In this document: piece after piece, positions 6,785-44,275 of the stretch | Numbering within the stretch: position 1 is the first letter of the stretch | Layout: each line of letters opens with the position of its first letter | Assembly (NCBI RefSeq): GCF_900114645.1 | Contig: NZ_FOTR01000014.1 | Location: 1 to 64,000, forward strand | Length of the DNA stretch: 64,000 nt | Direction: 5' to 3' | Source of the DNA: Gracilibacillus orientalis | GTDB taxonomy: Bacteria; Bacillota; Bacilli; Bacillales; Amphibacillaceae | Translations under genes and position numbers: made by a program | The notes under the pieces: model-generated | Told to the model about the DNA's origin: nothing | The model's input: only the letters and a program-made list of their open reading frames with translations | Databases searched by the model: none

Positions 6785-7744
6785 CTAATACATTGATTCA
6801 AATGCTTTTTTATATAATGTCTCTGTTTCGATAAAGCGTTCAACTTCTGAGGATGTCCCCATTACAACAGAGATAAGTCTTACACCGTCCTTCTGAATTG
6901 TTCCGGTAAAACAATAGCCAGCAAGACTCGTGTATCCTGTTTTTAATCCATCTACCCCGTTGAAAGCTAAGTCACCTTCCAGCATCCAATTAGTGTTTTC
7001 ATGTTTTTGGCCATTTAATACATACGCAGGTTGATTACTAATCTCCAGTAACTCTGGGTATGTAGTGATCAAGTGCTCTGCAAGTTTCGCTAAATCCTGT
7101 GCTGACATCGTATTGGTATCATTTATACTACCAACAGAATAATAATCGCCCAGATCCAAATTGTCTAATCCAGTAGTGTTAACAAATTGAGTGTCTTTCA
7201 ACTGTAATTGTTGTGCTTGTTTATTCATTTGTTGTACAAATAATTCTTCACTGCCACTGACAGCTTCCGCTAATGCAATCGTTGCACCATTCGCGGAATG
7301 AATTGCCATCGCTTGGAACAATTCTTCTACCGTATAATGACGGTCCTTTGATAAATCGACGGAAGCATATCCGGGATGATGGGAGATGTCATACGCATAA
7401 TCACTTATAACTATTTCACTATCCCAATCCAATTCACCACTATTAATTTCCTTTAAAACGAGCAATTCAGTCATCATTTTTGACATGCTCGCTGTAGGTA
7501 ATGGTACATCACTATTTTTCTCATAAATAACATGTCCTGAATCGGCATTAATCAAAATAACAGAACTTGCATCTAAATCGATATCAGTAATATTCCAAAA
7601 CCTGTCTAATGGCCGATCAGGATATATTAATTCTTTTTTAATTTTATCTGTCTGTTGAACCTTCTTGCTTGGTAATGTTGCTTCATCACCTGTTTGATTA
7701 CATCCACTTACAACTAATAACATCACTAGTAATAATCTTTTCAT
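6785..7744 (-). CDS. D-alanyl-D-alanine carboxypeptidase lipoprotein
   Basis: The 319-residue protein carries all three motifs of the penicillin-binding serine peptidase fold: SMSK (Ser86, Lys89), SAN (150-152) and KTG (268-270). A lipoprotein signal ends at Cys15 (VVSGC), so it is probably tethered to the outer face of the membrane instead of using the C-terminal amphipathic anchor of classic DacA/DacF, which is absent. It should trim the terminal D-Ala from peptidoglycan stem peptides. Whether it acts in vegetative cells or in the spore cortex cannot be read from the sequence. Confidence 0.92.
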   Translation of the reverse strand: MKRLLLVMLLVVSGCNQTGDEATLPSKKVQQTDKIKKELIYPDRPLDRFWNITDIDLDASSVILINADSGHVIYEKNSDVPLPTASMSKMMTELLVLKEINSGELDWDSEIVISDYAYDISHHPGYASVDLSKDRHYTVEELFQAMAIHSANGATIALAEAVSGSEELFVQQMNKQAQQLQLKDTQFVNTTGLDNLDLGDYYSVGSINDTNTMSAQDLAKLAEHLITTYPELLEISNQPAYVLNGQKHENTNWMLEGDLAFNGVDGLKTGYTSLAGYCFTGTIQKDGVRLISVVMGTSSEVERFIETETLYKKAFESMY

Positions 7745-26803: not shown

Positions 26804-28300
26804 TTATCCGCTCTTCTTCAACACTAATTCCTCATGTTTTTCAGTAGCTGTCAACCATCCAATGATGGCCATTGCAATAAATGATGCGAAAGAAGCAAAG
26901 AACATCGCAAGATATATATTTTCTATTATATTAAATTGAGTAAAGACAACATACAAACCTGCACCCGTGATTACTGCTGCAATTGCACCATAGTTTGTTG
27001 CCTTCTTCCAAAAGTATCCTAATGTTATCGGTGCTAAAATACCAGAAATAATTGCAGAAAAGCTAAATTGAATTAATATTGACAATGAATCCGGCCGATC
27101 TAAGGAAATATATAAAGACAAGAGACCAACTACAATAAGCGATCCCTTCGCCACCTTAACCGATTGAGATTCTAATCTCGCCTGACTGATATTCTTCTTA
27201 AATACCGGTGCCAGTACCCGGTAAAAGTCATTCCCGATACTAGTTGTCACTCCCAAGTACAAGCTGTCTGTACTGGAAAGAATAGCAGAAATAATACCGA
27301 CAATCATAATCGCAGCAATAATACTAGGGAACGATTCGATCACATACATTGGAATCGCTGAATCCGGACTATTTAATGTTGGGAAGATTACACGTGCCGC
27401 TAATCCACCAAGTACCATCAATGTTGAAATCACAAACAAAACAATCCCTGATGATAAGGTGAATGGAGCAAGTTCTTCCTCTGTTTCGATCGATAAAATC
27501 TTATTTAACAGGTGTGGCATTAAAACAAAGCTGAATAGTAAAAACTGAACAGCCATAATGGCTAACACACTATTATATGGACCATCTACACCAACAAAAG
27601 TTGTTAAATTAGAATCTACAGCATTAAGTTGATTGGTTAATTCACCAAATACATTGAATCCGCCACCGATTGTCCAAAAGAATGAAATAAAAATAAGGAT
27701 TGATGCTACAGCCATAAACAGTCCTTGAATACCGTCCGTAATCATTTGTGCAAAGGCACCACCAAGTCCGATATATAAAATCGTAATGGCTACCCCGATG
27801 ATAATCCCCCAGAAATATGGAATCCCGATTACCGTTTCAAAGATAGTGGCAAGACCGACATTTTGCCCGACTATATAATAGACATTGAACAAAATAAGCA
27901 GTGATACAATAACCTGTAACGTTTTAGAATTATATCGTCGACCTAACCATTCTGGTACCGTGGAAACTCGACCGAATTTTTTCCCATAACGCCAAAATGT
28001 TTTCGCAAAAATTAATAGACCTACCCATGAAACTCCAAAACATCCTAATGTATACCATAAAACCGATGTGCCATACTCATAAGCTAAGCCTGGAACACCA
28101 ATAAATAGATTCGCACTAGAGTAAGAGGCGGCGAAACTAGCACCTACCAGCCATGGGCTGACCTTCCCTCTCGCGGTAGCAAATCCATTCATCGATTTGC
28201 TATGAGCACGTCCTTTTTTTCCGATCCATGTTACAACGCCGAAATAAGCAATTAATAATATAATAACAGTCCAAAGAAGTAAACTAGATTCCGCTAACAT
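26804..28300 (-). CDS. Sodium:solute symporter (SSS family)
   Basis: The 498-residue membrane protein has about 13 helices. Its first segment LLLWTVIILLIAYFGVVTWIG, the WLVGASFAASYSSANLFIGVPG Na+-site region and the SSTDSLYLGVTTSIGNDFYR block place it in the SSS/PanF-like family. Substrates of the family are organic acids, amino acids and vitamins. As the distal gene of an operon for acetoacetyl-CoA metabolism it may import acetoacetate or another short acid; that is inference. AAAGGTGG overlaps the stop of the 27-codon ORF upstream, so translation may be coupled. Confidence 0.9.
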   Translation of the reverse strand: MLAESSLLLWTVIILLIAYFGVVTWIGKKGRAHSKSMNGFATARGKVSPWLVGASFAASYSSANLFIGVPGLAYEYGTSVLWYTLGCFGVSWVGLLIFAKTFWRYGKKFGRVSTVPEWLGRRYNSKTLQVIVSLLILFNVYYIVGQNVGLATIFETVIGIPYFWGIIIGVAITILYIGLGGAFAQMITDGIQGLFMAVASILIFISFFWTIGGGFNVFGELTNQLNAVDSNLTTFVGVDGPYNSVLAIMAVQFLLFSFVLMPHLLNKILSIETEEELAPFTLSSGIVLFVISTLMVLGGLAARVIFPTLNSPDSAIPMYVIESFPSIIAAIMIVGIISAILSSTDSLYLGVTTSIGNDFYRVLAPVFKKNISQARLESQSVKVAKGSLIVVGLLSLYISLDRPDSLSILIQFSFSAIISGILAPITLGYFWKKATNYGAIAAVITGAGLYVVFTQFNIIENIYLAMFFASFASFIAMAIIGWLTATEKHEELVLKKSG

Positions 28301-28402: not shown

Positions 28403-28810
28403 TTAATCCCCTTTCTTTTGGAAAAATGGTAATAGTCTTTCATTTAGTGACTGAAAGGATATTTCTACTGGTAACTGATAGTGCAATTCCTGTTCGTTAA
28501 TTAGCAAATGAGTGAGTAAGGACGGTCCTTCGGCTAATTCAACAATTCCTACTGCGTATGGCGTACGTTCCTGCCAGGCAGGATGTCCTGTTCGATGAAC
28601 CATACTCCATGATTTTAACTTTCCTTGCCCTGAAGCTTCCTTCCATGTCAGATGAGATCCAAAGCAGTGGGGACAATGAGCTCGCGGATAGAAAACCCAC
28701 TGAGCACAATCATCACATTGCTGTAGATAGAATTGTTTCTCGGCAACTTTATCCCAAAAAGGTTTACTTACTGCTGTAATCGTCGGTTCCGGAAATGATA
28801 TATTCGTCAT
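28403..28810 (-). CDS. DUF35 Zn-ribbon/OB-fold acyl-CoA-associated protein
   Basis: The 135-residue protein has a four-Cys zinc ribbon (CDDCAQWVFYPRAHCPHC, about residues 32-49) followed by an OB fold with the LKSWSMVHR and PYAVGIVELAEG strands. DUF35 proteins partner with thiolase-like proteins and channel or present acyl-CoA intermediates (as in mevalonate-pathway and steroid side-chain complexes). Its ATG overlaps the stop of the SCP-x-like thiolase by 4 bases, so the pair almost certainly forms a complex. Confidence 0.9.
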   Translation of the reverse strand: MTNISFPEPTITAVSKPFWDKVAEKQFYLQQCDDCAQWVFYPRAHCPHCFGSHLTWKEASGQGKLKSWSMVHRTGHPAWQERTPYAVGIVELAEGPSLLTHLLINEQELHYQLPVEISFQSLNERLLPFFQKKGD

Positions 28811-29967
28811 TGTTCTCCTCCTAATACTAAAGCAGTTGTTTCACTTAAAGTCGCTCCATTTCCAGTAACGAGAGCGTGTCTAGCACCGGGAATTTGTCGC
28901 CTTTTTCCTTCACCGCGTAATTGCACGACTGCTTCGATTACGTGCGACATCCCTCCCGCTAAATCTGCTTGTCCAAATCCTAATTGACCGCCATGTGTAT
29001 TGAGTGGATAATCCCCATCAGGTCCAAAAGTATGGCTTCTGACAAAATCACCAAATTTTCCTGGCTTACATATCCCCATACTCTCAAGCTGTACCGCTAC
29101 AACATTTGTATAACAATCATACAAGGACAGTAAATCTAAATCCTTCCCATCTATTTCCGCCTGTTGTAAGGCTTGTGGAATCGAATATGCAAAAGGTAAC
29201 TGATCAGTAGCCGGGGCTTGGCTGACCGCTCGATGTGTTATTTTTTCCCCTGCTCCTTTAAGATAGACCGGTTTATGTTTAGCTTGCTTCGCTTTTTCTT
29301 CTGAAGTCACGATCACCGCTGCACCACCTGCACACGGCATGACAATTTCTAAAAGTCGCAGTGGATCAGAGATCATTGGTGACTGCAAAATATCTTCCAA
29401 CTCAACTGGTTTATCATAAAAGATGGCTTTCGGGTTTTTTAGGGCATTTTTCCTTGCCCAATAGGCAATGCTGGCAAAGTCCTCTTGTTTGGAACCATAC
29501 ACTTCCATGTGTTCTCTTTTTAACAATGCATAGGAGGTATTTGCACCTGAAGCACCAAATGGAACATCGAATTCACGAATTGGGTTACGATTTGGTGAAC
29601 GTGGTGCCTGTCCTTTTTCATTTTTATTTGCTAATACACAGACAACCGTTTCACACATTCCTGCTTCAATCGCGGCTGCTGCACGCCATACCATTCCTGC
29701 ACCAGTTGCACCACCAAGATCAACGGTATTTGACATGATCGGTGAGAGCCCTAAATATTCTGACACTGTTGCAGGCACATGTTGTGGTGTTTCACCGACT
29801 TGTGGTCCAACTAGCAATCCATCTATTTCATCCTTAGTTATCCCGGCATCTGTTAATGCCAGTTGTACGGATTCTGCTATCAATCCTAAAGTCGTTTTCC
29901 CCTCTGAGTAACGGACTGGCTTTAGTTCACCGATACCAATAATGGCTCCTTTCGGTCGTTTCGCCAT
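28807..29967 (-). CDS. SCP-x-like thiolase-fold protein
   Basis: The 386-residue protein is a thiolase superfamily member of the lipid-transfer/SCP-x type: RPKGAIIGIGELKPVRYS N-terminus, DLGGATGAGMVWRAAAAIE in place of the canonical nucleophile-Cys motif (no Cys there), DCYTNVVAVQLE, and NTHGGQLGFGQADLAGG. Lacking the nucleophile loop, it probably does not run a normal Claisen thiolysis alone and works with the DUF35 partner. Start at ATG 29967, where TAATG overlaps the ligase stop and AAAGGAG lies 8 nt before; the frame from 29976 is less likely. Confidence 0.88.
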   Translation of the reverse strand: MAKRPKGAIIGIGELKPVRYSEGKTTLGLIAESVQLALTDAGITKDEIDGLLVGPQVGETPQHVPATVSEYLGLSPIMSNTVDLGGATGAGMVWRAAAAIEAGMCETVVCVLANKNEKGQAPRSPNRNPIREFDVPFGASGANTSYALLKREHMEVYGSKQEDFASIAYWARKNALKNPKAIFYDKPVELEDILQSPMISDPLRLLEIVMPCAGGAAVIVTSEEKAKQAKHKPVYLKGAGEKITHRAVSQAPATDQLPFAYSIPQALQQAEIDGKDLDLLSLYDCYTNVVAVQLESMGICKPGKFGDFVRSHTFGPDGDYPLNTHGGQLGFGQADLAGGMSHVIEAVVQLRGEGKRRQIPGARHALVTGNGATLSETTALVLGGEQ

Positions 29968-31898
29968 TAGTAGCACTCCTTTTCTTTAATATCTGTCAAT
30001 TCTTTCAGGCATTCAGGGTTACTAATAGAAGCTTTGTTTTTGACTTCTTTTCCAGCAGCTTCTGTTTTAGCTGCACCTTCTACTTTCTTACCATTGATTG
30101 TATATGGAATATCATTAACTTGATAAATACGTCTTGGTACATGTCTTGGTGATGCCTTTCCACGTATTTGCTGGCGAATATATTTAGCCAGGTCTTTCGT
30201 TAAATAATCTGTTACTACACATAAAACAATTTCTTCATCATTATCACAAGGTAAGCCAAATACAATCGAATCCTTAACTTCTTCAATCTGCTCTACGACA
30301 CTATAAATTTCTGCTGTACCGATTCTCACACCGCCCGGATTAAGCACAGTATCTGCACGACCATAGATAATAAAAGACTGATCAATCGTTTGTTCCGCAA
30401 AATCACCATGTGTCCATATGCCAGGTCGTTGGGCAAAGTAATTGTTACGATAACGTTCGTCCCCATTCGCTCCATAGAATGTTAGCGGCATGCTTGGAAA
30501 GGGTTGCGTACATACAAGATCTCCTTTTTGACCATAGACAGGTGCATTACGTTCGTCGAAAACTTCCATAGCCATTCCTAATGCTTTACAACTGATCTCA
30601 CCACGAATAACAGGATGAACTGGTGAACCCATCACAAAACATCCGATAATCTCGGTACCACCTGAAATAGAAGCTAAATAAAGATCTTCTTTAATGGTTT
30701 CATATACCCAGTCATATTGCTCCGCCACAAGCGGTGCACCACAGGAAAGAATACTTTTCAAGGAAGCTAATACATAGTGATCTTTCAATACAACATCTGC
30801 TTTCATTAACGAATCTAAGTATTTTGGACTCGTGCCAAAATGTGTAAGATCGATTTCTTCTGCAATGTCCCACAAATGTGTCGGCTTATCAGGTAACACC
30901 GGAGAACCGTCATATAATAAAATTGAAGCATTACTAGCCAAACCAGTAACTATCCATGGATACATCATCCATGCCGTATTGGTATACCAAAACAACACAT
31001 CTTCTTCATGGACATCACAGTGCAATTGATGCTCTTTAACATGTTGTAAAAGCGTTCCTCCGACAGAATGAACAATTGCTTTTGGTAATCCTGTTGTACC
31101 TGATGTATATAAAATATATAAGGGATCATGAAAATCGATTCGTTCAAATGCAGGTGTCTCCGCATCATTTTCAAGTAAAGATTGCCATGTGATCGCCTCT
31201 GGCAATTCTCCCGCAATGGTTATAACTTGATTAATACTATCAATCTGCCCAACTGTTTCTTGTACTTTTTCCGAAATATCAAAAGGCTTCTGTTTATAGT
31301 AATATTTGAGATTCGCAATCAGTATTTTCGGCTGCACTTGACCAATCCGGTCAATGATTCCTTTAGCACCAAAGTCTGGTGAACAAGAAGTCCACACCGC
31401 ACCAAGTGATGTTGCAGCAAGTAAAGCGACTAAGCCTTCCATATTATTAGTAGTAATACCTGCTACACGATCCCCTTTTTGCACTCCAAGTTGCTTTAAA
31501 CCGTGTTGTGCTTTTGCTACTTGTTTGCGCAATTCTTGAAAGGTAATCTGCCCTGTTACACCTGCTTCATCCGCTTGATGGGCAGCAACTTGCTCCTTAT
31601 TACCTTTTAATAGATTTTCAGCAAAATTTAATCGAGCATCAGGGAAAAAGACCGCATCTGCCATCGAATCTGCGGGAACATAGATTGTTTCTCCTTTATC
31701 CCCGATAATACCGGCATAGTCCCATACGCCGGACCAAAAGTCCCCAATATTAGTGATCGACCAACGATGTAATCTTTCATAGGGAAAGAGTGGTTGATTG
31801 ACAGACTTTGCAAAAGCTTTAAGATGTGATTGCTCGATATCTTTATCCCCAGGTTGCCATAATATATGATTCTCTTTCTCTATTGTTTGAGTATTCAT
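29967..31898 (-). CDS. Acetoacetate-CoA ligase
   Basis: The 643-residue ANL-superfamily enzyme activates acetoacetate to acetoacetyl-CoA with ATP and CoA. It has the AMP-binding P-loop (YILYTSGTTGLPKAIVHS), the TWTHGDFA-like A8 region (IWTHGDFAEQT), the hinge GRADTVLNPGGVRIGTAEIY and the C-terminal catalytic Lys in NDIPYTINGKKVE. The N-terminus (ILWQPGDKDIEQSHLKAF) and the SIGAVWTSCSPDFG-like block are specific to acetoacetyl-CoA synthetases as opposed to acetyl-CoA synthetases. The ATG overlaps the thiolase stop by 4 bases. Confidence 0.92.
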   Translation of the reverse strand: MNTQTIEKENHILWQPGDKDIEQSHLKAFAKSVNQPLFPYERLHRWSITNIGDFWSGVWDYAGIIGDKGETIYVPADSMADAVFFPDARLNFAENLLKGNKEQVAAHQADEAGVTGQITFQELRKQVAKAQHGLKQLGVQKGDRVAGITTNNMEGLVALLAATSLGAVWTSCSPDFGAKGIIDRIGQVQPKILIANLKYYYKQKPFDISEKVQETVGQIDSINQVITIAGELPEAITWQSLLENDAETPAFERIDFHDPLYILYTSGTTGLPKAIVHSVGGTLLQHVKEHQLHCDVHEEDVLFWYTNTAWMMYPWIVTGLASNASILLYDGSPVLPDKPTHLWDIAEEIDLTHFGTSPKYLDSLMKADVVLKDHYVLASLKSILSCGAPLVAEQYDWVYETIKEDLYLASISGGTEIIGCFVMGSPVHPVIRGEISCKALGMAMEVFDERNAPVYGQKGDLVCTQPFPSMPLTFYGANGDERYRNNYFAQRPGIWTHGDFAEQTIDQSFIIYGRADTVLNPGGVRIGTAEIYSVVEQIEEVKDSIVFGLPCDNDEEIVLCVVTDYLTKDLAKYIRQQIRGKASPRHVPRRIYQVNDIPYTINGKKVEGAAKTEAAGKEVKNKASISNPECLKELTDIKEKECY

Positions 31899-33061
31899 CC
31901 TTTTCCTCCTTCCTCTGGTACCTCAATCAAAATGGCAATCCCTTGACCTCCACCACCACATAGGGAAGCAATGCCTTTACCACCACCACGTCGCTTCAAC
32001 GCATGTGCCAATGTTAATACTAGACGGAAACCAGTACCTCCGAGTGGATGACCTATTGCAATAGCTCCTCCATTAACGTTTACTTTGCCATAATCAATAT
32101 TCAGTGCCTGACAGCTTGAGATAACGACACTCGCAAATGCTTCATTTATTTCAAATAAATCAATATCATCTACTGTTAGTTGCTGTTTATCTAATATTTT
32201 TTGCATTGCATCTGCTGGTTTTGTTTGCAAACTAGCATCCGGTCCCGCAGTTTCTGCCCAGTCAATCACATGAGCAAGTGGTTCTGTTTCTAGTTGTTGT
32301 GCTTGCTCTAATGTTGTAACCACACCAATACTTGCCCCATCTGTCATTTGTGAAGCATTTCCAGGTGTAATGGTTCCATCTTTCGTAAATGCTGGCCTAA
32401 GTTTCGCTAACTTTTCAACCGTTGTCTGAGGTCGTACCCCTTCATCCTCTGCTAGCACTCCATCGATCGGAAGGATTTCCTCTTGCAACAAGCCTTGTTC
32501 AGAAGCTACGGCAGCTCTTTGCTGAGAGAGAGCTGCAAATTGATCCTGTTCCTCGCGACCAATGTTGTATGCACGATTGTATTGTTCTGTTAGGGCACCC
32601 ATGGACTGATCACTTAAGGAACACCATAATCCATCGTGAAGTAACGTATCGATTATCGTTTGGTGTCCAATACTTTTGATCGATCGAGTCGGAATCACAT
32701 GAGGTGCATTAGACATCGAATCAAAACCGCCTACAACATAAAAAGACCCTTCTTCTAATTTAATTCTGCGTACGGCATCAATGACCGAGGCAACTCCCCC
32801 GAGACATACGTTATTCAGTGTGATTGCTGGCGTCCTGGTATCCAACCCCGCCTTGTATGCAACTTGCCTAGCAGGGTTTTGTCCTTGACCAGCCTGAATA
32901 ACTTGCGCTAATAATACTCCATCTATAATAGGTAACGTTGCATATTTTTCGACTAAATGTTTCAGTGGCTTGCTCGCTAAAGATACAGCATCAAATTTCG
33001 AAAGCCCACCATTCCATTTCCCAAAAGGTGTCCGGATCCCGTCTAAAATGACAATCGACAT
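31895..33061 (-). CDS. Acetyl-CoA acetyltransferase (thiolase)
   Basis: The 388-residue type II thiolase interconverts two acetyl-CoA and acetoacetyl-CoA. The nucleophile Cys86 lies in LNNVCLGGV. EINEAFASVV, the catalytic His motif NGGAIAIGHPLGGTG and the C-terminal proton-relay Cys (SLCGGGGQG) are all present. It is the first gene of the operon. AAAGGAG precedes the ATG, and two SAM-I riboswitches occupy the leader. With the ligase it would convert acetoacetate to acetyl-CoA. Confidence 0.95.
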   Translation of the reverse strand: MSIVILDGIRTPFGKWNGGLSKFDAVSLASKPLKHLVEKYATLPIIDGVLLAQVIQAGQGQNPARQVAYKAGLDTRTPAITLNNVCLGGVASVIDAVRRIKLEEGSFYVVGGFDSMSNAPHVIPTRSIKSIGHQTIIDTLLHDGLWCSLSDQSMGALTEQYNRAYNIGREEQDQFAALSQQRAAVASEQGLLQEEILPIDGVLAEDEGVRPQTTVEKLAKLRPAFTKDGTITPGNASQMTDGASIGVVTTLEQAQQLETEPLAHVIDWAETAGPDASLQTKPADAMQKILDKQQLTVDDIDLFEINEAFASVVISSCQALNIDYGKVNVNGGAIAIGHPLGGTGFRLVLTLAHALKRRGGGKGIASLCGGGGQGIAILIEVPEEGGKG

Positions 33062-33151: not shown

Positions 33152-33298
33152 TAAAAAAGCCCTCTTCGATAAAAAGAGGACTCTTTCACTCTTCTTATCT
33201 TTCAGGATTACTCCTGTTGGAATTAGCACCTTTTAAGCCATTGCTTAATGGTTGCCGGGTTTCATTGGGCCGGTCCCTCCACCTCTCTTGATAAGTTC
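33152..33298 (-). promoter_or_regulatory. SAM-I (S-box) riboswitch, gene-proximal copy with terminator
   Basis: On the minus strand all conserved S-box blocks appear in order: CUUAUC (33295-33290), AGAGAGGUGGAGGGA, the GGCCC...GAAACCCGGCAACC junction, GGUGCUAAUUCC, GGAGUAAUCCUGAAAGAUAAG, with P1 closing at 33199-33194. It is followed by a terminator GUCCUCUU/AAGAGGGC with six U (33181-33152). High SAM should favour the terminator. The thiolase start codon lies 91 bp beyond it. Confidence 0.96.
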
Positions 33299-33336
33299 GA
33301 TATATTATATTAAATATTCTGAATATTTTTCGTAAA

Positions 33337-33500
33337 TAAAAAATCCCTCTACATAGAGATAGAGAGATACATTAGAAAGCTATGAATCTCTTATCTCTTC
33401 TAAGTGAGACCACTTAGATGGAATTGGCACCTATATTAAGTAAAACTTAATGGTTGCCGAGGTTTCTACGGGCCATTCCCTCAACCTCTCTTGATAAGAC
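33337..33500 (-). promoter_or_regulatory. SAM-I (S-box) riboswitch, promoter-proximal copy with terminator
   Basis: This is a second complete aptamer in the same transcript: P1 UCUUAUC (33499-33493) with GAUAAGA (33395-33389), AGAGAGGUUGAGGGA, GGCCCGUAGAAACCUCGGCAACC-like junction, GGUGCCAAUUCC, and a P4 hairpin CUAAGUG/CACUUAG. Its terminator is AUCUCUCUA/UAGAGGGAU followed by six U (33368-33337). Its sequence differs enough from the gene-proximal copy that it is not a very recent duplicate. Confidence 0.95.
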
Positions 33501-33544
33501 AAGAATAATATGGTCCATTTTTTCAAATCCAAGTAATACACTAC

Positions 33545-33574
33545 ACTTTAGCATGCTTTCGTTGAAATTGTCAA
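33545..33574 (-). promoter_or_regulatory. Promoter of the riboswitch-controlled operon
   Basis: Perfect -35 TTGACA (33574-33569), an 18-nt spacer and TAAAGT (33550-33545) on the minus strand. Transcription would start about 40 bp before the first aptamer. Confidence 0.6.
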
Positions 33575-34231: not shown

Positions 34232-34463
34232 TAATTACTCTTTCTCATTTGAACAGACCCTTGCTCTACTTCCTGTGCTTGTTGTTGCCTCTTCCTTGGA
34301 ATTCTCGTTCTCTTCCTTGGAAAAGTACACCCCTTCCTTGGAATTCTCTTTCCCTTCCTTGGAAATATTCATTTTTCCAAGGAAGAGCAGCACTTTTCCA
34401 AGGAACAAAAAAACACGAACATTAAATTCGTGTTTTTTCATCATTCGAGTCCTTCTGTCCTAG
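34232..34463 (-). repeat. Dispersed 21-nt-array element, copy 1
   Basis: Read on the minus strand, the element begins 7 bases past the pentapeptide-gene stop with CTAGGACAGAAG-ACTCGAATGA. A terminator-like hairpin follows (ACACGAA...TTCGTGT plus T run), then two TTCCTTGGAA units and four TTCCAAGGAA units at about 21-nt spacing, ending with a conserved tail (GAAGAGGC...CACAGGAAGTAGAGC...TCTGTTCAAATGAGAAAGAGTA). The two unit types are reverse complements, so the array can fold on itself. Two homologous copies lie at 41245-41485 and 44084-44275. Confidence 0.9.
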
Positions 34464-41244: not shown

Positions 41245-41485
41245 GCTAGGACAGAAGTACTCGAATGAGGCCAAAACACGAACATCTAGTTGGATGTTCG
41301 TGTTTGTTGTTCTGTTCCTTGGAAAAGTATCATTCTTCCTTGGAAAAATGAGTATTTCCAAGGAACAGAACTATAATTCCAAGGAAGCGGTGCACTTTTC
41401 CAAGGAAGGGAAAGAGAATTCCAAGGAAGAGGCTACAAGCACAGGAAGTAGAGCATTGATCTGTTCAAATGAGAAAGAGTATTTA
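41245..41485 (+). repeat. Dispersed 21-nt-array element, copy 2
   Basis: On the plus strand: GCTAGGACAGAAG-ACTCGAATGAGG, hairpin AACACGAACATC...GGATGTTCGTGTT, two TTCCTTGGAA and four TTCCAAGGAA units (41336-41426, about 21-nt period), then the shared tail ending TCTGTTCAAATGAGAAAGAGTA. It is almost base-for-base the reverse complement of the copy at 34232-34463. It lies directly after mhqD in the same orientation. Confidence 0.9.
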
Positions 41486-44083: not shown

Positions 44084-44275
44084 GTCTTTCTCATCTAAAT
44101 ACTTCCTGAGCTTGTTACCTCTTACTTGGAATTCCAGTTCGCTTCCTTGGAAAAGTATTTCTGTTCCTTGGATATGCATTTTTCTAAGGAAGAATGATAC
44201 TTTTCCAAGGAACAATAAACACGAACATCAAACTTGATGCCCGTGCAAATCGAATACTTCTGCCCCAACCTCATT
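44084..44275 (-). repeat. Dispersed 21-nt-array element, copy 3 (degenerate)
   Basis: On the minus strand it begins at the stop of the nucleotidyltransferase gene with GGGGCAGAAGTATTCG. Then come a degraded hairpin GGCATCAAGTTTGATGTTCGTGTT, TTCCTTGGAA, TTCTTAGAA-type variants and TTCCAAGGAA units (about five in all), and part of the tail (AAGCTCAGGAAGTA...ATGAGAAAGA). One unit is missing and several are mutated, so this is an older copy. Confidence 0.85.

Follow-up and report, generated by a model that had tools for sequence, protein, structure and literature searches.

We describe a tandem riboswitch leader and its operon in a stretch of 64,000 nucleotides (nt) from Gracilibacillus orientalis (contig NZ_FOTR01000014.1, positions 1 to 64,000; hereafter the window). 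Two aptamers of the SAM-I (S-box) class, which respond to S-adenosylmethionine (SAM), lie in series between a promoter-like site and six genes on the same strand. The genes are as listed in a first-pass annotation of the window: a thiolase, an acyl-CoA ligase, an SCPx-like protein, a DUF35 protein, a membrane peptide, and a symporter. In order of transcription, the features are as follows (AACS, acetoacetyl-CoA synthetase).

33574-33545, minus strand: promoter-like site TTGACA-18-TGCTAAAGT, of the form TTGACA-18-TGnTAAAGT, from a consensus scan
33500-33388, minus strand: SAM-I aptamer copy 1 (upstream), RF00162 86.6 bits, E 3.9e-19
33368-33336, minus strand: intrinsic terminator 1 with U run, from a consensus scan, folding, and leader alignment
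33297-33192, minus strand: SAM-I aptamer copy 2 (downstream), RF00162 87.7 bits, E 1.9e-19
33185-33152 (approximate), minus strand: intrinsic terminator 2 with U run, from folding and leader alignment
31895..33061, minus strand: thiolase, PF00108/PF02803, with the Cys/His/Cys motifs NNVC, GHP, and CGGGG intact
29967..31898, minus strand: AACS-like acyl-CoA ligase of a distinct group, TIGR01217 698.2 bits (cut-off 520.9)
28807..29976, minus strand: SCPx-like protein of thiolase fold, lacking the nucleophilic Cys (aldolase-like), PF22691
28403..28810, minus strand: DUF35/ChsH2-type zinc ribbon-OB partner protein, PF12172 and PF01796
28316..28399, minus strand: 27-residue single-pass membrane micropeptide, read from the sequence
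26804..28300, minus strand: SSF sodium:solute symporter, PF00474 183 bits
26725..26800, minus strand: possible operon-end hairpin with U run, by eye and unscored

A cmscan search of the window returned two matches to RF00162 on the minus strand, both spanning the full model (1-108 of 108) and both far over its gathering score of 44.4, and no other gathering-level Rfam match. The first-pass annotation had claimed two complete S-boxes in one leader, each with its own intrinsic terminator and with a TTGACA promoter ahead; all three elements are present, and neither copy fails its covariance score. E-values near 1e-19, together with conservation, rule out chance or artefact, and the full-length score over threshold rules out a degenerate second copy. 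Both terminators fold as expected. The stem of the first spans 33368-33343, with a folding energy of -11.0 kcal/mol over 33375-33340, and the second reaches -20.5 kcal/mol over 33192-33150; the consensus terminator scan listed the first only, and the second comes from the folds and the alignment. SAM-I expression platforms set a terminator against an antiterminator that uses P1, and this arrangement is found in both leaders, in the second by complementarity only. The unliganded minimum-energy fold of leader 1 is the antiterminator, in which the 3′ strand of P1 pairs with the 5′ strand of the terminator. The corresponding pairing in leader 2, GATAAGAAGAG with CTCTTTTTATC, was read from the sequence, and the minimum-energy fold there is the terminator and not the antiterminator.

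Promoter-like sites over the region occur at chance level (22 found versus 24.2 expected). The -35 and -10 hexamers of the 33574-33545 site are kept in five aligned Gracilibacillus leaders, as are both aptamers and both hairpin regions, and these five leaders have no conserved promoter between the aptamers. A TATAAT-like string that lies there in the window was considered as an internal promoter and rejected, being unreported by the promoter scan and not conserved. From knowledge of the riboswitch family and from the terminators, we infer OFF logic in which a single transcript is attenuated in two steps. At high SAM, each aptamer would let its own terminator form and transcription would stop at either site; when SAM, and hence methionine, is scarce, both terminators would be read through. 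If the two terminate independently, the fraction escaping at high SAM would be the product of the two, giving tighter and steeper repression. PMC9481103 states the same expectation for repeated riboswitches of one ligand.

The Cys, GHP, and CGGGG motifs of the thiolase are present in all 38 aligned sequences, the window included. The SCPx-like protein, by comparison, lacks the nucleophilic Cys of thiolases in all 31 sequences aligned, and as this residue is missing, an aldolase-type reaction is more likely than thiolysis. Its nearest solved chains are 9myr, 4u4e, and 6ok1. The last of these, Ltp2, likewise lacks the nucleophilic Cys in an alignment with the window protein, and the Ltp2-ChsH2 and SCPx-DUF35 pairs resemble the window in that a Cys-less thiolase fold adjoins a DUF35 protein. 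They differ in that the window protein keeps one, but not the second, of two tyrosines that we take to be catalytic in Ltp2. The micropeptide has no NCBIfam match, and the symporter scores 173.6 bits against the panF model, below its cut-off of 328.

To follow the leader and operon beyond the window, we surveyed related genomes. An orthologue of the ligase is found in 11 of 17 Gracilibacillus genomes, and at all 11 RF00162 places an S-box ahead of the thiolase, in two copies in six genomes and one copy in five. The five single-aptamer leaders weigh against a need for the pair and indicate that the tandem is dispensable. Other genera of the family have an S-box at 11 of 12 further loci (tandem in five), bringing the family total to 22 of 23; the Oceanobacillus rekensis locus (L046/L074) has no S-box at the operon. 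A second set came from scanning an alignment of the symporter against a collection of 84,980 species. This gave 54 loci. L101 and L102, which belong to other phyla and show 28% and 22% identity, were set aside; the remaining 52 usable loci come from 14 genera that include Halobacillus, Lentibacillus, Aquibacillus, Oceanobacillus, Salimicrobium, Salinicoccus, Fictibacillus, and Ammoniphilus; many species are shared with the 23 family loci, and the two sets are not independent. A covariance model found an S-box at 50 of the 52 loci. The two misses are O. rekensis and a contig that starts inside the operon, the leader of which sits on another contig of the same genome and is tandem (L035). Gracilibacillus boraciitolerans (L035, L036, L084) has its operon split between contigs, and its ligase, SCPx-like, and symporter genes contain frame breaks. 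The covariance model, R1, was built from 26 sequences including operon aptamers, which makes its hits at the operon partly circular; Rfam's own RF00162 model, an independent check, confirmed the S-box at all six distant loci tried. The operon is unusual as an S-box target, as the first-pass annotation had remarked, and its link to the S-box is strongly conserved. The symporter family itself seems rare elsewhere in the class, its profile matching 5 of 398 sampled class genomes at E <= 1e-120, three of them Gracilibacillus.

What stays with the S-box is the SSF symporter and a membrane peptide of about 30 residues, and not acetoacetyl-CoA chemistry. The symporter, as the search query, is constant across the 52 loci by construction; the one-helix peptide lies about 100 nt upstream of it in 51 of them (49 found automatically and two on a second look; 26-44 residues as read, the longer ones reflecting earlier start codons). 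The enzymes vary. Type A operons have the window's order, thiolase-ligase-SCPx-DUF35-symporter, and type B operons read thiolase-symporter-ligase, with or without SCPx-DUF35. Type C combines thiolase, another ligase, the symporter, and an enzyme of acyl-CoA dehydrogenase (ACAD) fold, with a sulfite-oxidase-fold protein added in some and the ligase missing in one, and type D consists of a sulfite-oxidase-fold protein and the symporter. In type E, the symporter adjoins or diverges from a flavin mononucleotide (FMN)-dependent monooxygenase of the NtaA/DmoA family, and in type F it has none of the shared enzymes, as at L091 and L092, where S-box and symporter occur without them. The thiolase is missing in Halobacillus sp. 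A1, H. campisalis, and H. massiliensis, which are type A by symporter. It was rejected as the constant S-box partner, being missing in L053, L054, and L069 and in the symporter-monooxygenase loci. On the symporter tree, types A (100/99) and B (99/96) each occupy one side of a branch with the other types outside, and several long branches leave the deep order unsure; Salinicoccus, of another family, falls within type B, which suggests transfer.

Two type E loci have further neighbors. At L106 (963-7938), an S-box, a DmoA-like monooxygenase, and the symporter are followed 675 bp on, on the same strand, by a betaine/choline-type ATP-binding cassette (ABC) transporter; carriers of this type can also take sulfonio compounds. 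At L094, the S-box of the Alteribacter monooxygenase-symporter operon is preceded, at a distance of about 860 nt, by a c-di-GMP-II riboswitch (7344-7428).

The tandem pair stands directly ahead of the operon in 24 of the 52 loci, and in type A operons it is found at 25 of the 28 loci with a leader available, the window included. RF00162 and covariance searches of relatives, the check that the first-pass annotation had proposed, find the pair kept in many of them. Its description of tandem copies as uncommon holds only in a relative sense: 164 double SAM-I cases are given in a passage of PMC9481103, and in the type A operon the pair is the rule. Of 13 tandem relatives folded, all have a strong hairpin after both aptamers and 11 have a U run directly after both hairpins; the U tract is interrupted at the second hairpin of L059 and at both hairpins of L100. 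An initial hairpin search that needed four U in a row missed the terminators of L100 and did poorly on the second of L059, and these were refolded. The interrupted tracts, the O. rekensis locus without an S-box, and the leaders down to one copy are what would be expected if the S-boxes were remnants, or so prone to read-through that they regulate little, their conservation being the shared ancestry of one mobile operon. We regard this as very improbable, given that the aptamers remain full length at protein identities as low as about 60% and despite changes in gene order, and that the strong hairpins are found in every tandem relative folded.

The two aptamer copies in the window are 63% identical to each other. 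Against the three closest species, identity is 86-90% between first copies and 94-95% between second copies, and copies also pair by position within Halobacillus. Since same-position copies match best across species, the pair is old and mostly kept within Gracilibacillus and within Halobacillus. Single-copy leaders in Gracilibacillus are of either kind, of copy-1 type in G002, G011, and G. dipsosauri and of copy-2 type in G. timonensis and YIM 98692. Copy-to-copy orthology fails in part: in G. halotolerans, copy 1 is most similar to copy 2 of the same leader (0.78), and in Lentibacillus the copies, at 0.54-0.56 to their own partners, match those of other genera poorly and, if anything, crosswise. 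One clean ancestral duplication is accordingly supported inside Gracilibacillus and, separately, inside Halobacillus, and is unsupported for G. halotolerans and Lentibacillus, as is a single origin of the pair in all genera.

The genome of the window contains 13 SAM-I aptamers. Identified by eye from the translations (four of the proteins were later scanned), the remaining targets resemble genes for methionine, cysteine, and sulfate and include a MetN-like gene and an NlpA-type lipoprotein gene; further targets are a short-chain dehydrogenase and a gene resembling an FMN hydroxy-acid oxidase. Elsewhere in this genome, one S-box heads an operon of sulfhydrylase, SsuA, permease, ATPase, and AcsA (L104, 6956-14234). 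The O-acetylhomoserine (OAH) sulfhydrylase is fused to a CoA-binding domain, which is seen in its Ammoniphilus homologue, and AcsA is an acetate-CoA ligase by score (784.7 bits, cut-off 729) that may recycle the acetate released by the sulfhydrylase. We checked ten close S-box pairs: in nine other Gracilibacillus genomes the sulfhydrylase gene, 90-95% identical, follows two S-boxes, and the tenth pair has a sub-threshold copy and no sulfhydrylase gene in the stretch read. In Ammoniphilus, the symporter with an S-box of its own is flanked on one side by an S-box OAH sulfhydrylase and on the other by an Ssu-like ABC transporter plus ligase. At L103 (5488-7620), an S-box precedes a short-chain dehydrogenase and a large open reading frame (ORF) that resembles a membrane transporter; among the many similar models for the dehydrogenase, 3-hydroxybutyrate dehydrogenase is just one.

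The window ligase scores well over the curated acetoacetate-CoA ligase equivalog cut-off (698.2 versus 520.9 bits, TIGR01217) and matches the acetoacetate-CoA ligase structure 4wd1 with 440 bits. Despite this acceptance by the curated model, its group stands apart, by identity and without a ligase tree: members are 58-90% identical to one another and about 41% identical to 20 ordinary AACS from related genera. Comparing 35 group ligases with these 20, we found 75 differences fixed at at least 90% in both sets, including G309A, W313Y, N314P, S388A, D416E, V417I, C418I, T419G, and A420C. The stretches that hold these positions presumably line the acyl pocket, by analogy with the acetyl-CoA synthetase Acs, and with changes at 309, 313, 314, 388, and 416-420 the pocket would differ from that of ordinary AACS. 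The ligases thus appear to form a separate group with an altered acyl pocket, which makes the "acetoacetate" annotation doubtful. Ordinary AACS also differ from the window type in their regulation, as none of 20 such loci (about 41% identical; sampled among 61 matches listed at about 40% identity) has an S-box. A tie between the S-box and AACS in general is ruled out on this sample. With the constancy of the symporter and peptide through enzyme swapping, the altered ligase, and the lack of S-boxes at ordinary AACS, the first-pass label "acetoacetyl-CoA operon" is probably a misnomer.

The same evidence bears on an account in which the operon supplies acetyl-CoA: acetoacetate or a similar short acid would be imported and converted to acetyl-CoA for O-acetylhomoserine in methionine synthesis, with the S-box AcsA beside OAH sulfhydrylase recycling acetate. 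The ligase score, the intact thiolase motifs, and the pairing of acetate-CoA ligase with OAH sulfhydrylase in the genus's other tandem S-box operon, as it stands in the window's genome, fit this account. We nevertheless consider it unlikely, for the symporter remains under the S-box even without ligase or thiolase, the ordinary AACS loci lack S-boxes and the expected acyl pocket is altered, and methionine synthesis is a small sink of acetyl-CoA.

If the symporter and micropeptide are the constant part, they could instead form an importer of methionine or an analogue, the CoA enzymes being passengers that act on its carbon skeleton or on another acid. Loci such as L091 and L092, without shared enzymes, would agree with this, as would the classical control of methionine importers by S-boxes and the MetN-like and NlpA-type genes that follow S-boxes in this genome. 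MetNQ-type importers are already present, however, and the co-occurrence of symporter and thiolase in four bacterial families suggests one pathway; we judge the passenger account quite unlikely. In Fictibacillus nanhaiensis, a divergent second tandem S-box (L086, 6018-6400) precedes an NlpA-type lipoprotein gene and stands back to back with the symporter operon.

We think it probable that the operon is a SAM-repressed set of transporter and enzymes for scavenging an acid that is either an organosulfur compound or a precursor of methionine. The sodium-coupled SSF symporter, with its one-helix accessory peptide, would import a small carboxylic acid; the AACS-like ligase would convert it to a CoA ester; and the thiolase, the SCPx-DUF35 pair, or both would split that ester. 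The acid would most likely be an organosulfur compound or methionine precursor (a sulfonate, sulfinate, methylthio, or sulfonio acid), which would place the unit in a regulon for sulfur or methionine scavenging and not in ketone-body metabolism. The sulfur content of the substrate and the order of the enzyme steps are suggested by context, namely co-regulation and the enzymes swapped in elsewhere, which are of types met in organosulfur metabolism (the NtaA/DmoA FMN monooxygenase and the ACAD-fold and sulfite-oxidase-fold proteins). The C-terminal motif of the ACAD-fold enzyme is GLHNPPMD in six of six members, without the usual Glu, which we take to be catalytic at this site in dehydrogenases. 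The Ammoniphilus locus, with its sulfhydrylase and Ssu-like neighbors, also speaks for the sulfur reading. The aptamers, terminators, gene content, conservation, and enzyme swapping are direct observations. Sulfoacetate, 3-sulfopropionate, 3-sulfinopropionate, methylthiopropionate, dimethylsulfoniopropionate, and gonyol-like acids were considered, and none is singled out. The first-pass annotation had offered two alternatives: a tie of acetoacetate or short-acid metabolism to methionine status, which is now less favored, and a symporter for a methionine-related compound, which, in the form of a methionine- or sulfur-related substrate, is favored because the symporter stays with the S-box without the enzymes.

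Several observations weigh against the scavenging reading. In addition to the ligase's score as an acetoacetate-CoA ligase, the window operon proteins include no known desulfurising or sulfur enzyme, the thiolase motifs are normal, and neither the ligase nor the thiolase type is sulfur-specific. The monooxygenase variants carry more divergent symporters (54-70% identity) that may take other substrates, and the type E monooxygenase matches the alkane monooxygenase LadA better than dimethyl sulfide monooxygenase. The NCBIfam matches of the ACAD-fold enzyme to 3-sulfinopropanoyl-CoA desulfinase and SfnB are far below the cut-offs. Its best solved match is 5gj7/5z8t (373 bits), for which we know of no function.

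Tandem SAM-I riboswitches are a known arrangement; the unusual part is the target operon. The SAM-I/SAM-I pairs of PMC9481103, which also counts one triple, are like that of the window in having two complete aptamers with their own intrinsic terminators and an expected steeper OFF response; the passage on them names no target genes, where here there is a symporter/CoA-ligase/thiolase operon. The main text of PMC12452182 gives metQNI, ssuABC, hom1, and amhX as tandem SAM targets in Bacillota, the same phylum and arrangement as the window leader, and the Gracilibacillus OAH sulfhydrylase-SsuABC-AcsA operon would fit its ssuABC entries; that main text makes no mention of thiolase, acetyl-CoA, symporter, or the five matching COG numbers. 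Unassigned genes under SAM riboswitches in Bacillales appear in part of PMC3766115. In the literature searched, supplements being outside the search, we found no report of the window operon. Known organosulfur scavenging sets of the SsuD, SfnG, or DmoA type resemble the sister S-box operons, in which a symporter of the same family is joined by a monooxygenase of the NtaA/DmoA family, and differ from the window operon, which has no such monooxygenase.

Two further features of the window lie outside the operon. The palindromic 10-mer TTCCAAGGAA occurs in 14 exact copies, versus 0.34 expected by chance, in three clusters with mostly 21-nt spacing (34292-34405, 41315-41428, and 44143-44212). The repeats sit in short ORFs that read like FLGKVSFFLGKM, and an exact pair at 21-nt spacing turned up in two of the 136 loci retrieved, each of which overlaps the window. 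Between 37554 and 41236, a MarR regulator is followed by two similar glyoxalase-fold genes, which flank a flavin reductase-like gene, and by a hydrolase; the cluster resembles a quinone-stress cluster, presumably of the mhq type.

The SAM-I class is one of the best-known kinds of riboswitch, with a list of targets generally regarded as short. A target kept in 14 genera and absent from the survey text searched offers a handle on an unassigned symporter family and its micropeptide, and the long-kept tandem provides diverged aptamer pairs for gauging what the second switch contributes. We tentatively propose, as a possibility somewhat short of an even chance, that in halophilic Bacilli a SAM-repressed SSF symporter and micropeptide, a transport system so far undescribed, feed one or another exchangeable set of enzymes (ligase-thiolase-aldolase, ligase-thiolase-flavoenzyme, or flavin monooxygenase), which would release sulfur or a methylthio group from an organosulfur acid. 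If this is true, the version in the window would be a previously unknown route that depends on CoA and needs no oxygen. Enzyme swapping behind one transporter and one RNA switch is a natural experiment for finding the substrate, and the sulfur or methionine source that the proposal predicts for halophiles is open to testing by growth.
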